Below, piece by piece: positions 58,917 through 63,995 of a stretch of DNA of 64,000 nt. The notes beneath the pieces were generated by a model. The model was not told the DNA's origin, did not search any database, and saw only the letters and a program-made list of their open reading frames with translations. Within the stretch, counting starts at the first letter, position 1. Every line of letters starts with the position of its first letter. The position numbers were made by a program, and so were the translations under genes. Source of the DNA: Trichodelitschia bisporula (taxonomy: Eukaryota; Ascomycota; Dothideomycetes; Phaeotrichales; Phaeotrichaceae); contig ML996707.1 in the NCBI GenBank assembly GCA_010356995.1, forward strand, positions 452,680 through 516,679. The letters are read 5' to 3'.

Positions 58917-60039
58917 TTATACCGCGCTGTATCCACCCCTCGATCCGCCGCTTTGCACGGTTGAAACGACTCTCCTGCCCCAGTCCTTCATGAGGAACGG
59001 GATATCGCGGATCGCATCTCCGTGAGGCACCATATCTAGACCACGTGCGCCATACCTCGAAAAAGTTAGCTTGTGCGGCTTGCTCATCGCCGGTGCCTTA
59101 CCTGTTGTAGTTCAACCAAGAGCCGAAGATAAGGTATGCAGCAACGACCATGAAGAGACTATGCGCGTTAGCTATGAATATAGCCCCCGGAATCTCATAA
59201 CACCCACATAATGATGAACCAGGTGAAAAATCCCCAGCCTCCCGAGCTGGAAGATGGCTGACCGTTGGAATCTTCGCATGCATACTTTGTACGCCAGTCG
59301 AGCCGTAGAACGCCCCATTCATCATCACGAATAGTCTCCGTCTTGTAGCTGATAAAGCTCAGACTCTTCGTAAGTGGCTTCTCTGCGCCCTTCTTCGGTT
59401 CGTCGCGCCTTGTGAGAGATTCGCCGTCGTCATCGATCTTATCCCGGTTGTCCGGCTCGTCGCCCTCCAGCCCAGTACGATCGCGGTCGCAGATAAACTC
59501 GATGATAGCCTTTTGCTTCACGCCGCCTTTGTTGAGGGGGTCCTTGCCCCCCTTCATCTCCAACCGCACGCCCTCTCTTTCCGCATCCGCATGCGACCCA
59601 GATGTGCGAAGGCGCGTCGGCGTGATTTCGAGAGGCGTTCCGGTCTTGAGCGTGTAGTCACCGGCGATGGGTACAACATGCGCGATAGTGGACGTGTTGT
59701 CAACGGGATTTGAGATGCGTTGTATTCCACACACTGGCGGAATCAGCGATAGCCACCAGGTACTTCGTTCTACCAACCTCTAGTCATCCCGGGACACTCG
59801 TCCGAGGCGGGCACTCCTTTCGTCCGTCTCAACGGTCGACATATATCCAGCGTGAACGTCCAGTTCGAGATCCCAGGACTCAGCTCCCGGATGTAGTGCA
59901 CCGAATGCGGTCCTCCCAGCTCTCCGAGGTTCCATTTAACTTTGTCTTGCACAATGGCCTTGCAGTCGAAGCCGAGACCGGCGATTAAACTTGGTAAGGA
60001 GGCCAGGGCAGCAGCTGTGTGCAGCGACGAGCGAACCAT
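58917..60039 (-). CDS. ATG27: Autophagy-related membrane protein Atg27
   Basis: Four exons on the minus strand: 60039-59778, 59733-59208, 59158-59102, 59055-58917; 327 residues. The signal peptide (LHTAAALASLPSLIAG) leads into a lumenal mannose-6-phosphate-receptor-like domain with paired cysteines (DCKAI, DICRP, DECPG, TRVCG, FICDR, KYACE) and blocks KWNLGELGGPHSVHY, NWTFTLDIC and AHVVPIAGDY. One transmembrane helix (FFTWFIIILFMVVAAYLIFGSW, completed by splicing) precedes LNYNRYGARG, PHGDAIRDIPFL and the C-terminus GGYSAV. The final YSAV is the known Atg27 tyrosine sorting signal for endosome/vacuole trafficking. Atg27 supports Atg9 vesicle transport. Start chosen at ATG 60039 because the frame further upstream lacks a signal peptide. 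Confidence 0.93.
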
Positions 60040-60788
60040 GATGGAAGCCGGAGGTCGCCGACAGCGAGGCAGGGCAGTATAGCCTCTTAGAAAAGTTAAA
60101 TGAGTCTGTAAGAAGGGAAGATGAAGAGGGTCGTGGCACAAGCGTGGTGGTTTGACGGGTCTGAGAGACTTGATGGCACGCGGCCATGTCGGCATGACGC
60201 TGTTCGCTGATCGATGGCAGGTTATGCACGTGATCATTCTCGCACAAGGGTCAAGGACCACCTTAAAAAGTCGTGGCAGTCCTGTCAGAATCTCTTTGCG
60301 GAAAGGGGCGGCCACGACATTCTCTGGTGGCCATTGGCTCGGCAGATAAACGGCTCAATTCAACCCTCAAGCTTCACGGAGCGGACAAAGAACCATCTCT
60401 TGTGTAAATTATCTCTTCATAATTATGTTCCCGCTAACTACAAGCACATACGGCCATAGGTCGGAGACTGCACCTACGTTCGCGTTCCCAATTTGGTAAA
60501 ACTCTGAATTTAGGCTAGCGTCATATATCCTTTGTCATCAGGCTTGGCGAATATTGTCTAATTAAAGTTGCCATTATTAAGCGCGCGACTACGGAAGGGA
60601 ACTGTCGATTCTGCTTTTCAACTTTTCAAAACTCCAGGACGACGAATAAGGCGTCCTCAGATGCCTTCGGTAGGGGCGTTGTTAGATGGTCCTTAGGAGG
60701 GCTGGGAGGTAAACTGGTTAATGCTCTGACTTAAATATCCCCGAAGACCAGTGCTGGTTCAGAAGTCAACCTTCTGCCCTCGATCTAA
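60040..60788. other. Intergenic region; possible left boundary of a mobile element
   Basis: Promoter of ATG27 (minus) and 5' flank of the recombinase gene (plus). Base composition becomes more AT-rich after about 60360, consistent with a junction, but no target-site duplication or terminal repeat could be identified inside the window. Confidence 0.35.
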
Positions 60789-62546
60789 ATGTCAACGCAA
60801 AACTTCGCTCACCTTCTCTCTAGGCTGAAAAGCCGCCGAGTGGAGGCAAGATACTCGAAATCGGCAAAACACAGCCTGAGCCGAATCCACCGCCAATGGA
60901 AAGAGTTCTGTGAAGCTGCACGAGCCTCCGATATACCTAATGGAGATGCACTTTTCAGTGACCCTGAAAAGTATATGGCGGAGGCTGACCCTGAGCTGGT
61001 TATGTTGTTCCTGAAATGGACTTTGGACACGCGAAAGGGAATCCGAAAAGAGATAACTATTAACGCCTACTATGACCGGTGGCACACCACTCGAAGACAA
61101 ATACCGCATCACCGAGCGTGGAGCCTTGAGGACAGGAAGCGTGTTAATTCAGTAAGAGACTCATCTTGATAAACTCGAAACTAATTTTGTATAGTTCATC
61201 TCTTTGGATCTAGCCTCTGAGCATGGACTCAGTAGAGAACGACAGCCGAAGCCTGTCCTAAGCTTTGCCGATATTACCATCCTTCTCAACCACCTTTGGA
61301 AATGGGACAGGCTGCAGTATAGAAACGAGAGATTACGAGTCCAAGTGGCCTTGGTTTTACTGATTTCGATGGCTATGGCAACAAGGCCAGCGGCATTGCT
61401 TGAGACGGAGTACGCCAAAGAAGATCTTGGGGAACCACCCAAAGTACTTTGTTATGAGCATGTCAGGCTCTTCTTAGTCCGCGATTCCGAACGGATGAGA
61501 CAGAAGCTGGTTCTGGAAATCAACCTTGTCTTTCACAAAGGATATGAGCGAAATCCCAAACCGTAACTTCAGTTTGGCATTTGCATGCTAATAATCTTCT
61601 ACAAGAACCACCCACATTCTTACCGAGACAGAGAATCTTATCGTTGATCCCATAATACTCCTGCTGGTTCTCGCATTCCAGGATGACGCCTTTAGGGGAG
61701 GAATCAAATCATATGAAGACATTCAAAGACTTGTTATCCCGGATCATCTTGAGAGGTTGAAACTCTCCTGGCAGCCAAATATGCACGGCATTCCAGTGTT
61801 TCGTCAAGCAAAACCACGCAGCAAAGAGATGGAAAGCAGGAAGCCTTTCGCATATACGTCATATTTGCACTACATGCAACGCCTTGGTGCGGAGGCGGGG
61901 TTCCAGACTATGCTCACGCCTTACATGATTCGGCGCGGTGTTGGAGAGGCGCTTGAAAGTCAGTATGCTTCTTTCCACGTAGTAATTTAACATCATCGTC
62001 TGTAGATCCGCAACGGAGCAACAACTTCAACAACTTATGGGTCATCGGCTTGATCGAACGTTCCAGTCCTATATCAACCGCGTAAGTCAAGTGCATACGC
62101 AGGCAGTCTTTGCCAATGAGGAGCCGGACCACGGGGCTATGGACCTGCTGTCACACCAAGCCGTCAACCGGGACCCGCGTGCCCAGCCGTCCAATATGGT
62201 GCTACGGCACCAGCCTGGTTACAACTCTCAGCCCGGTCTTTCCCAGCTCTTGAAGAAAAGGGATGATGCAAAATTCGCAATTCTGATGACTGGGTCAACC
62301 GTCAGAGATGCACATATGAACTGTCCTGATCTTGCTCAGCTGTATAAAACTGTCATGGGAGGATACCATCTCTCCCATGTCAAATGGCCACATGTCCTGT
62401 ATGGGTCACGTGACTCGGCAAGATTGATGCCGGATGCTGCAATTCCAGCCCCGGCTAGACTTGCCGGTGAGGGCTTGGCGCTGGCCTGTGCGCTAGCACC
62501 CCCAGCTCCCCCACGCTCCACATTCAGACGCGAAACCTTTACATAG
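60789..62546 (+). CDS. DUF3435 tyrosine recombinase (Starship captain-type)
   Basis: Four exons: 60789-61151, 61195-61562, 61606-61962, 62006-62546; 542 residues with all joints in frame and no internal stop. Family blocks: LSFADITILLNHLWKWDR, ERLRVQVALVLLISMAMATR, INLVFHKGYERNPKP, THILTETENLIVDPI and LVLAFQDDAFRGG. Tyrosine-recombinase residues are in place: Arg185 (ATRPA), Tyr350 and Arg353 (TPYMIRR), His376 (LMGHR) and nucleophile candidate Tyr385 (FQSYINR). Enzymes of this family cut and move large fungal Starship elements and normally form the first gene at the element's left end, reading inward. At 542 residues it is shorter than many captains. It could alternatively be a solitary relic or a Crypton-like element. 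The splice sites look functional, which favours a recently active gene. Confidence 0.88.
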
Positions 62547-62762
62547 TTCTTCAAGCTTTCAATGAATCTTATTCCACAACCAATGCTGTGCAGCCAGTGA
62601 TTTGTGCGCCCCTGACAATATCTAAGAACCATAAGCTAGAAGAGCCCAGCGCTACGTCTAAATGACTTATACTAAATATAAGTAATCTTAGGGCAGCGCC
62701 TACTATTAAAAGCGGTACCTCGATCTTAATCGATTAATCGTCCTACCAATGCTTCTGTTCTC
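62547..62762. other. AT-rich spacer after the recombinase gene
   Basis: About 215 AT-rich bases; nothing recognised. Confidence 0.4.
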
Positions 62763-63228
62763 TATCCCACCGAGCATGCCAAGCTCCACTACATCCTGTT
62801 CCGCACCAAAGGAAAGATGTCCGCTCCGATCGTCGGCCGCATAGGAAAGATAGCATGAATCATTACCAGTCTGCGGAGATGATCAAGGATCTCACTCAGG
62901 CCCTTGGTGATTATGACGCCACCCGTCGTGCGGAACGTCGCCGCGACGATCGTTCCGACTTCCCGATGAAGGAGAACGAGGATCTCGGGAGTACATCACT
63001 CGGTTCGCTAGCGTGGTCAACGACATCCCTTGGTACCATTATAGCCCGGGTGTCGAGAGGCAGAAAACCAATCTCTTCCGCCAGAACTTAACGAAGGAGA
63101 TCCTTCAGGCTGTCTGCCACATGGACGAGGACCTCGGCTTTGAAGCTATCCGCTGTGCTGCTGCCAACTACTATCATAACGCGCACCGTGACAGGGTTAG
63201 AAGATATATTGATCAGGCAGTAAGTTAG
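62763..63228 (+). pseudogene. Decayed retrotransposon Gag fragment
   Basis: Three short stretches in three successive reading frames together resemble the Gag polyprotein of fungal LTR retrotransposons: a YPTEHAKLHYILFRTKGK segment (from 62763), then YQSAEMIKDLTQALGDYD (from about 62861), then a third-frame segment with TRFASVVNDIPWYHYSPGVE and FRQNLTKEIL up to a stop at 63228. At least two frameshifts and one stop break it. No LTR or polymerase region is seen nearby, so it is a relic of fungal origin. Confidence 0.6.
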
Positions 63229-63367: not shown

Positions 63368-63890
63368 CGAGCGTCTAAGGCGACATATCCCCTACTGCTG
63401 AGCGGCCTACCGGTACTATAGCCTATACTCCCTCCACCTTCTAGCGGCCTACCTCCTACTTTATTAGGCGGCATATTCCCTACCACCTAGCGGCATATCC
63501 CCCACCAATCGGCACATCCCATACCACCTAGCTGCGTATCCCCTACCACTTAGCGGCATAGCCCCTATTAAAGGTCAGTGTGGGTCCAAGGTGCCAGGGC
63601 TACCCGTAACAAGTCCTGAGCGAGCCCCCCGGGACTGTTTACTAGAGAAGCGCTCATAACTCTTAGGTGTACCCTGGACCCACATATGCGACATTGACCT
63701 TTAATAGGCCTGATACCGTAGTACCTAGCGGCGTATCCCCTACCACCTAGCGGCATATCCCCTACAACCTAGCGGTATATTCTCCACCTAGCGGCATATC
63801 CCCTCCCACCTAGCGGCATGTCCCCTACAATTTAGCGGCACATATCCTACTACCTAGCTGCATATCCCCTACCACTTAACGGCCTAGACC
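63368..63890. repeat. Degenerate 22-bp minisatellite
   Basis: About 13 units related to CCTAGCGGCATATCCCCTACCA, in two blocks (about 63368-63562 and 63717-63890) separated by the foldback insertion. Units vary by substitutions and 1-4 base indels. Confidence 0.85.
63565..63707. repeat. Foldback (MITE-like) insertion with 28-bp inverted arms
   Basis: The arm at 63565-63592 (CTATTAAAGGTCA... TGTGGGTCCAAGGT) is matched in inverted orientation at 63671-63707, where the arm carries a 9-10 base insertion. About 78 bases lie between the arms. It interrupts the 22-bp minisatellite, so it probably inserted into it. Confidence 0.6.
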
Positions 63891-63896
63891 GCTTCT

Positions 63897-63995
63897 GAAT
63901 GGCCCTCGAGCGTCTGCAGCGCCTTTCCCGACCTGGCGTCCCACAGCCTAGGACGCCGGGTCGGGAAAGGCGCTGCAGACGCTCAAGGGCCATTC
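63897..63995. repeat. Near-perfect 45-bp inverted repeat with 9-base loop
   Basis: Left arm 63897-63941 and right arm 63951-63995 are reverse complements apart from two C/T-type mismatches; the loop is CACAGCCTA. The arms are GC-rich (core GCGTCTGCAGCGCCTTTCCC), unlike the adjacent minisatellite. This would form a very stable hairpin in DNA or RNA. Confidence 0.85.

Follow-up and report, generated by a model that had tools for sequence, protein, structure and literature searches.

Contig C21 of the fungus Trichodelitschia bisporula (ML996707.1) ends in a stretch of 64,000 bases (positions 452,680-516,679 of 516,679; hereafter the window, whose end is the contig end) that carries, at window positions 60,789-62,546, a gene of the DUF3435 recombinase family. 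Is this gene the captain of a giant mobile element, and if so, what kind of element did it belong to? The initial annotation had read it as intact and as the candidate captain at the left end of a Starship running off the window. According to published accounts, Starships carry a DUF3435 tyrosine recombinase, the captain, at their 5' edge, NOD-like receptor (NLR) genes are among their accessory genes, and some of them insert in 5S ribosomal DNA (rDNA) (PMC12506042, PMC12153272, PMC12134995, PMC10128009). We examined the locus in the assembly of this one genome (25.65 Mb, 30 contigs), and relatives of the window element are named by contig (C1, C3a, C3b and so on). The gene is very probably what remains of the captain of a Starship-like element that had entered a 5S ribosomal RNA (rRNA) gene. 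It belongs to a small, multi-copy, 5S-targeting, Starship-like family, and a giant size is unsupported.

The captain gene and its truncation

The four-exon structure proposed for the gene was confirmed as a spliced frame of 542 amino acids on the plus strand, with exons at 60,789-61,151, 61,195-61,562, 61,606-61,962 and 62,006-62,546. The three introns (61,152-61,194, 61,563-61,605 and 61,963-62,005) are each exactly 43 nucleotides (nt) long and run GT...AG. Pfam matched residues 147-467 of the spliced protein to DUF3435 (PF11917; E = 1.1e-52, 179.9 bits against a cut-off of 25.8), in agreement with a tyrosine recombinase of captain type, and residues 322-387 to Phage_integrase just under its cut-off (E = 5.4e-6; 26.7 bits against 27.1). 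The active-site residues named in the initial annotation were located in the spliced protein at their positions: R185 in exon 2, Y350 and R353 in exon 3, and H376 and Y385 in exon 4. Two solved structures were matched at E values up to 5, one of them the tyrosine recombinase XerA; in this weak alignment (E = 0.4), Y350/R353, H376 and Y385 stand opposite the HxxR, H and Y of XerA.

The gene had been described as intact and undisrupted, but an intact captain is ruled out by a repeat that cuts its last exon. The DUF3435 profile is covered at positions 3-316 of 418 only, so that the domain is less than full length. A 267-bp repeat (62,351-62,617, plus strand; TGTCA...TGACA) begins within codon 478, and the protein from residue 478 onward is encoded by the first 196 nt of this repeat. 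The last ~100 DUF3435 positions are gone, and the missing C-terminal piece was not found further along C21. A diverged pseudogene on C13 retains a weak match to the adjoining profile positions 319-366 (E = 0.0027), which at 17.2 bits falls short of the cut-off of 25.8. The captain remnant consists of exons 1 to 3 and the surviving part of exon 4 (62,006-62,350), which ends in codon 478. A DNA search (40 of 45 candidates scored) placed the 267-bp repeat at no fewer than 26 further positions in the genome. Six copies read with their flanks resemble single long terminal repeats (LTRs), with a perfect 5-bp target duplication at five and a duplication of 4 of 5 bases at the sixth; because target duplications flank these copies, the repeat is, on this sequence evidence, an LTR. 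The window copy at 62,351-62,617 has no target duplication around it, and therefore it may be part of a larger insertion, or a deletion may have come after.

Left and right ends at 5S rRNA genes

The element start had been predicted between 60,040 and 60,789, and this is where we found it. A dispersed repeat begins, by DNA search, at about 60,440, and window positions 60,446-60,462 (plus strand) are identical to nt 1-17 of intact 5S rRNA genes of the same genome; the common left-end sequence opens with ACATACGGCCATAGGTC, which is these 17 nt. This segment is the left direct repeat and putative integration site. Counted from 60,463, the captain ATG lies 326 bp inside a sharp left end, and the captain is the first gene and reads inward, as a captain had been expected to do. 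The left-end search scored all 14 candidates (19 rows) and, with an inner fragment on C29 left out of the count, gave 13 left ends including that of the window, ten others at 91-96% identity and two at 74-76%. The non-coding DNA between the integration site and the captain (60,463-60,788, plus strand) is common to these 12 relatives at the same identities.

Ten left ends were compared, namely the window and nine others; those of C25, C11b and C5 are not among them. Every one of the ten starts where a 5S gene starts (in the case of C3a, one with a changed start), and when their 200-bp upstream flanks were compared, a single pair among 45 was similar (C3b and C4, 41 bp at 78%). Dispersed 5S genes in this genome number at least 47 (47 of 1,770 candidates scored). 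Together with DUF3435 and the short introns, such dispersal would by itself point to a filamentous ascomycete as host. Movement of the element looks recent, because the left ends of C3b and C30 are each identical to that of C11a over 293 of 293 columns.

In the short copy C1, the right end continues into the remainder of a 5S gene. A search with this right end returned 52 rows, of which 22 were kept as right-end blocks (16 of these reach the junction) and the rest dropped as short fragments (five) or as matching only 5S (25). The 18-nt right-end pattern GGATACGGACACAGGTCA occurs, at up to 2 mismatches, in 18 places, 16 of them in right-end blocks; at up to 3 mismatches it gives 35 matches, as against 15 for the reversed pattern.

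Six of the ten right ends that were read abut 5S nt 18 onward directly (C1, C11b, C3b upstream, C3 170 kb, C5 131 kb and C5 102 kb). At C4 500 kb, the start of C25 and C11a, the right end is followed by a spacer and then by a 5S gene with the changed start GGAACGCGGCCATAGATC or near it; the tenth, upstream of C3a, is followed by the same spacer and then by the C3a left end. At six right ends, the final 17 nt agree with 5S nt 1-17 in 10-13 positions, an imperfect direct repeat. Four of these six reach, at their best match, the level of at least 12 of 17 that has a probability of 0.001 in a random-letter control; the control is mixed over left and right ends together, and for the right ends it supports a 5S likeness of most.

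Two comparisons with uninterrupted sites locate the exchange. C3a sits in a changed-start 5S gene; over 694 bp its left flank has a 95.2% match to the C11a site, which is uninterrupted, and homology ends at 5S nt ~22. Similarly, C3b agrees with C1 over ~1 kb at 93%, and homology again ends at 5S nt ~22. Because these paralogous empty sites break there, the crossover can be placed at about 5S nt 17-22 and, judged from sequence, they show that a changed-start 5S gene can be entered by the element.

Two 5S genes that directly follow right ends still clear the Rfam cut-off of 38 bits, with scores of 42.5 and 48.6. For comparison, scores are 85-96 for 39 of the 47 genes listed and 61-72 for the five that have a 129-bp spacer. 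Changed-start 5S genes stand 129 bp past right ends at five loci (C3 239,729, C11 730,464, C18 764,958, C25 568 and C8 1,263,325), and the 129-bp spacer could be the border of a further element that targets 5S. At C25 202,500-202,800, a different sequence, CAACACGGACACAGATC, is followed by 5S and ends at the same 5S point, a junction that hints at a second 5S-targeting family. On the left of the window element, and outside it, lies the ATG27-like gene that the initial annotation had named as its neighbor (59,195-60,040, minus strand); Pfam ATG27 was matched on two minus-strand frames, and the start codon was read from the sequence.

NLR cargo and element size

In C9, C27, C3a and C3b, the captain fragment stops at the position matching window 61,678 and is followed by an LTR-like piece of ~140 bp. 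Starting shortly before this cut and continuing to the end of the C9 contig, C27 and C9 are 95% alike over 717 columns. In C4 the LTR-like ~140-bp piece joins the captain at window ~61,221; the piece meets the captain at two points (window ~61,221 and 61,678), a pattern that separate LTR-driven deletions would leave. Behind the piece, C3a and C3b have DNA that by eye resembles a Copia retroelement.

The next gene of C27 encodes PNP_UDP_1, NPHP3_N and NACHT domains, all over their cut-offs, and is a PNP-NACHT NLR gene; a WD40 start at the C27 contig end was seen by eye only and had no Pfam match. A search with a 1,355-bp piece of this gene returned 31 rows; six of them, weaker or split, were set aside, which left 25 for analysis. 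A right-end block lies 4.8-7.2 kb downstream on the same strand in 13 of the 25 NLR copies, where the chance expectation is 0.006 per copy, and a left end lies 0.9-4.2 kb upstream in seven. Both are present in three copies (C3a, C11b and C5), and the order of left end, NLR and right end is the same in each. NLR-plus-right-end blocks that stand without a captain left end are found at C4 494,876, C5 125,359, C3 164,734, C12 123,170, C19 636,006 and other places. DUF3723 had no match in the genome, and the control genomes equally had none, so this absence speaks neither for nor against a Starship.

Five of the 13 left ends pair with a right end, and the paired spans are 1.3 (C1), 7.3, 7.6, 9.2 and 9.8 kb. 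In C4 the 5S remainder is reached at 8.7 kb. The sole candidate partner of the C25 left end is a 5S remainder 25 kb away, so that its span may be 25 kb, and the C3b left end has no right-end partner within 40 kb. No more than about 5 kb separates the left ends of C21, C9, C27, C30 and C14 from a contig end. Contig ends of C9, C14, C21, C25, C27 and C30 fall within copies of the captain element family, and therefore this family probably breaks the assembly. A telomere at the contig end of C21 was ruled out: TTAGGG-triplet matches number three in the genome, with none on C21.

Beyond the truncating LTR, the window copy holds an open frame at 62,917-63,228 (plus strand) that is gag-like by eye only, with no Pfam match over cut-off and a single match in the readable genome, and a degenerate, interrupted array of 22-bp tandem repeats at 63,380-63,886 (plus strand). 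A MITE-like (miniature inverted-repeat transposable element) insert with inverted arms lies in this array at 63,564-63,708 and resembles one place on C22 at 80%. No NLR lies in what can be read of the window copy. At the contig end, a palindrome (63,897-63,995) has 45-nt arms that are 96% complementary. Rfam matches of microRNA type on this palindrome fell under their cut-offs and were read as chance from the hairpin.

Eight right-end loci were compared, and in five of them the right-end block starts with this palindrome, 1.2-1.3 kb ahead of the junction. Because of this spacing elsewhere, the simplest reading is that the right end of the window copy, expected to resemble GGATACGGACACAGGTC, would lie ~1.3 kb past the contig and that the element would be about 5 kb long. 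Contig C25, whose first bases fall within a right-end block, is a candidate for the missing partner. The giant element that had been supposed to run off the window is not supported: the window ends where the contig ends, the palindrome predicts ~5 kb rather than 20-500 kb, and the paired spans lie between 1.3 and 9.8 kb.

Relation to Starships and rival explanations

The family works like a Starship in three respects. Its DUF3435 recombinase lies first at the 5' edge and reads inward, though the gene is truncated; its ends are defined, with direct repeats at a 5S target, though the repeat is imperfect; and accessory genes are present by way of the NLR inside seven left-end copies. It fails in size where both ends are seen, because the five paired spans of 1.3-9.8 kb stand against the 15 to ~700 kb given for Starships (PMC12134995); the span at C25 may be 25 kb. 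We therefore call the family Starship-like and stop short of classing it among the Starships. In one study, captain-containing elements of less than 15 kb were filtered out as captain-gene indels (PMC12153272). What is novel here is a length of less than 15 kb; we do not claim that small Starships are absent from print, as no search was aimed at them.

Among described systems, the Osiris navis Starships of Aspergillus fumigatus (Enterprise family) insert in 5S rDNA and have haplotypes that average 37.6-138 kb (PMC12153272). They are like the present family in the captain tyrosine recombinase and the insertion in 5S rRNA genes, a likeness of target and enzyme type, but they are far longer than the paired spans reported here, where no readable captain is complete. 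The Starship Sanctuary of Bipolaris sorokiniana has its captain ~350 bp from the 5' edge, against 326 bp here, and NLRs among its accessory genes; however, it is 170-196 kb long and has a 6-bp direct repeat, and the available portion of its description does not mention 5S for it (PMC12506042). Solo DUF3435 genes, as outlined in one report, are likewise DUF3435 genes outside a recognised element, whereas here left ends, right ends and target are recognisable (PMC12134995).

We envisage that a working recombinase would excise the element and carry it into another 5S gene through site-specific recombination of the tyrosine type, with the exchange at about 5S nt 17-22 between the chromosomal gene and element ends that resemble the 5S start. 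After insertion, the DNA upstream of 5S and nt 1-17 would lie on the left; on the right, the element would contribute a 5S-like start, followed by the rest of the gene. The same captain cut occurs at different 5S genes in C9, C27, C3a and C3b, which therefore calls for trans movement or repeated cuts, and movement in trans by a captain supplied elsewhere would be simpler than a repeated origin of the 61,678 cut. We infer that excision and insertion were the work of this enzyme, that copies with broken captains were moved by an enzyme from elsewhere, and that the window copy lost its NLR. As a tentative proposal, which we consider quite possible though short of probable, mini-Starships of ~7-10 kb (a captain plus a single NLR) would multiply at dispersed 5S genes, leave a 5S-like right start so that the target gene may survive, and include trans-moved copies without a working captain.

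Several observations weigh against a Starship-like, 5S-targeting element at this locus. DUF3435 is found at five loci of the readable genome (9 rows) and is complete at none. The ratio of nonsynonymous to synonymous substitution rates (dN/dS) of the captain exons, taken against the window, ranges from 0.29 to 1.41, with 11 of 13 comparisons within 0.48-0.93 (a table of 16 rows, three of which repeat C3a), and suggests weak constraint only. The 5S likeness of most left ends themselves appears weak: four of ten reach at least 10 of 12 matches, a level with a probability of 5e-5 in the random-letter control, and the other six score 8-9 of 12, when at least 7 of 12 already has a probability of 0.13. 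Four of the ten right ends do not lie directly at 5S, and in three of these a spacer precedes a changed-start 5S gene. Both empty sites, for C3a and for C3b, are paralogous and not allelic. Moreover, the window copy's own right end lies beyond the contig, parts of several element interiors read N in the assembly, 12 of the 25 NLR copies have no right end in reach and 18 no left end, and many NLR-plus-right-end blocks lack a captain left end.

The copies could instead be decayed ruins of ordinary giant Starships in which deletions joined the ends, so that the spans of 7-10 kb never were mobile units. We regard this as possible but somewhat doubtful, as three sites have the left end, the NLR and the right end arranged alike, with spans of 7.3-9.8 kb, captains cut at 61,678 are found at four 5S sites, and the left ends of three copies coincide over 293 columns; from the recurring truncated form and the agreeing left ends, it therefore seems that shortened copies have moved. 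Spread by ectopic recombination or gene conversion among dispersed 5S genes, with no part for the recombinase, would draw on the number and similarity of these genes and on the ~100 bp of 5S that right flanks have in common, yet the left side has only ~17-22 bp in common with the target and 44 of the 45 upstream-flank pairs are without similarity, which makes it improbable. Improbable too, and the least likely of the three, is a captain-like gene in a cargo-less Crypton-type element, the lineage that the initial annotation had offered as an alternative and that we do not favor. A Crypton has a Crypton-type recombinase and no cargo; here DUF3435 is the best family, and an NLR gene lies inside seven left-end copies of the family. 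The protein is short and copy C1 spans just 1.3 kb, as this explanation would have it, but the shortness of the protein is due to truncation, and the 5S target and the captain position agree with published Starships. Cryptons and the present elements are alike as tyrosine-recombinase DNA transposons, but Cryptons are described as only very distantly related to captains (PMC12134995), and Pfam's best family here is DUF3435.

The preferred reading thus remains a decayed captain in a compact, Starship-like family at 5S genes. Starships are known as giant cargo movers. If true, a multi-copy family of less than 15 kb with NLR cargo and precise 5S targeting would mean that captains also drive compact elements and non-autonomous copies. 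Some fungal NLR genes have been linked to self/non-self recognition (PMC12506042), and the spread of NLR genes would, on the same condition, be tied to transposition into 5S genes.
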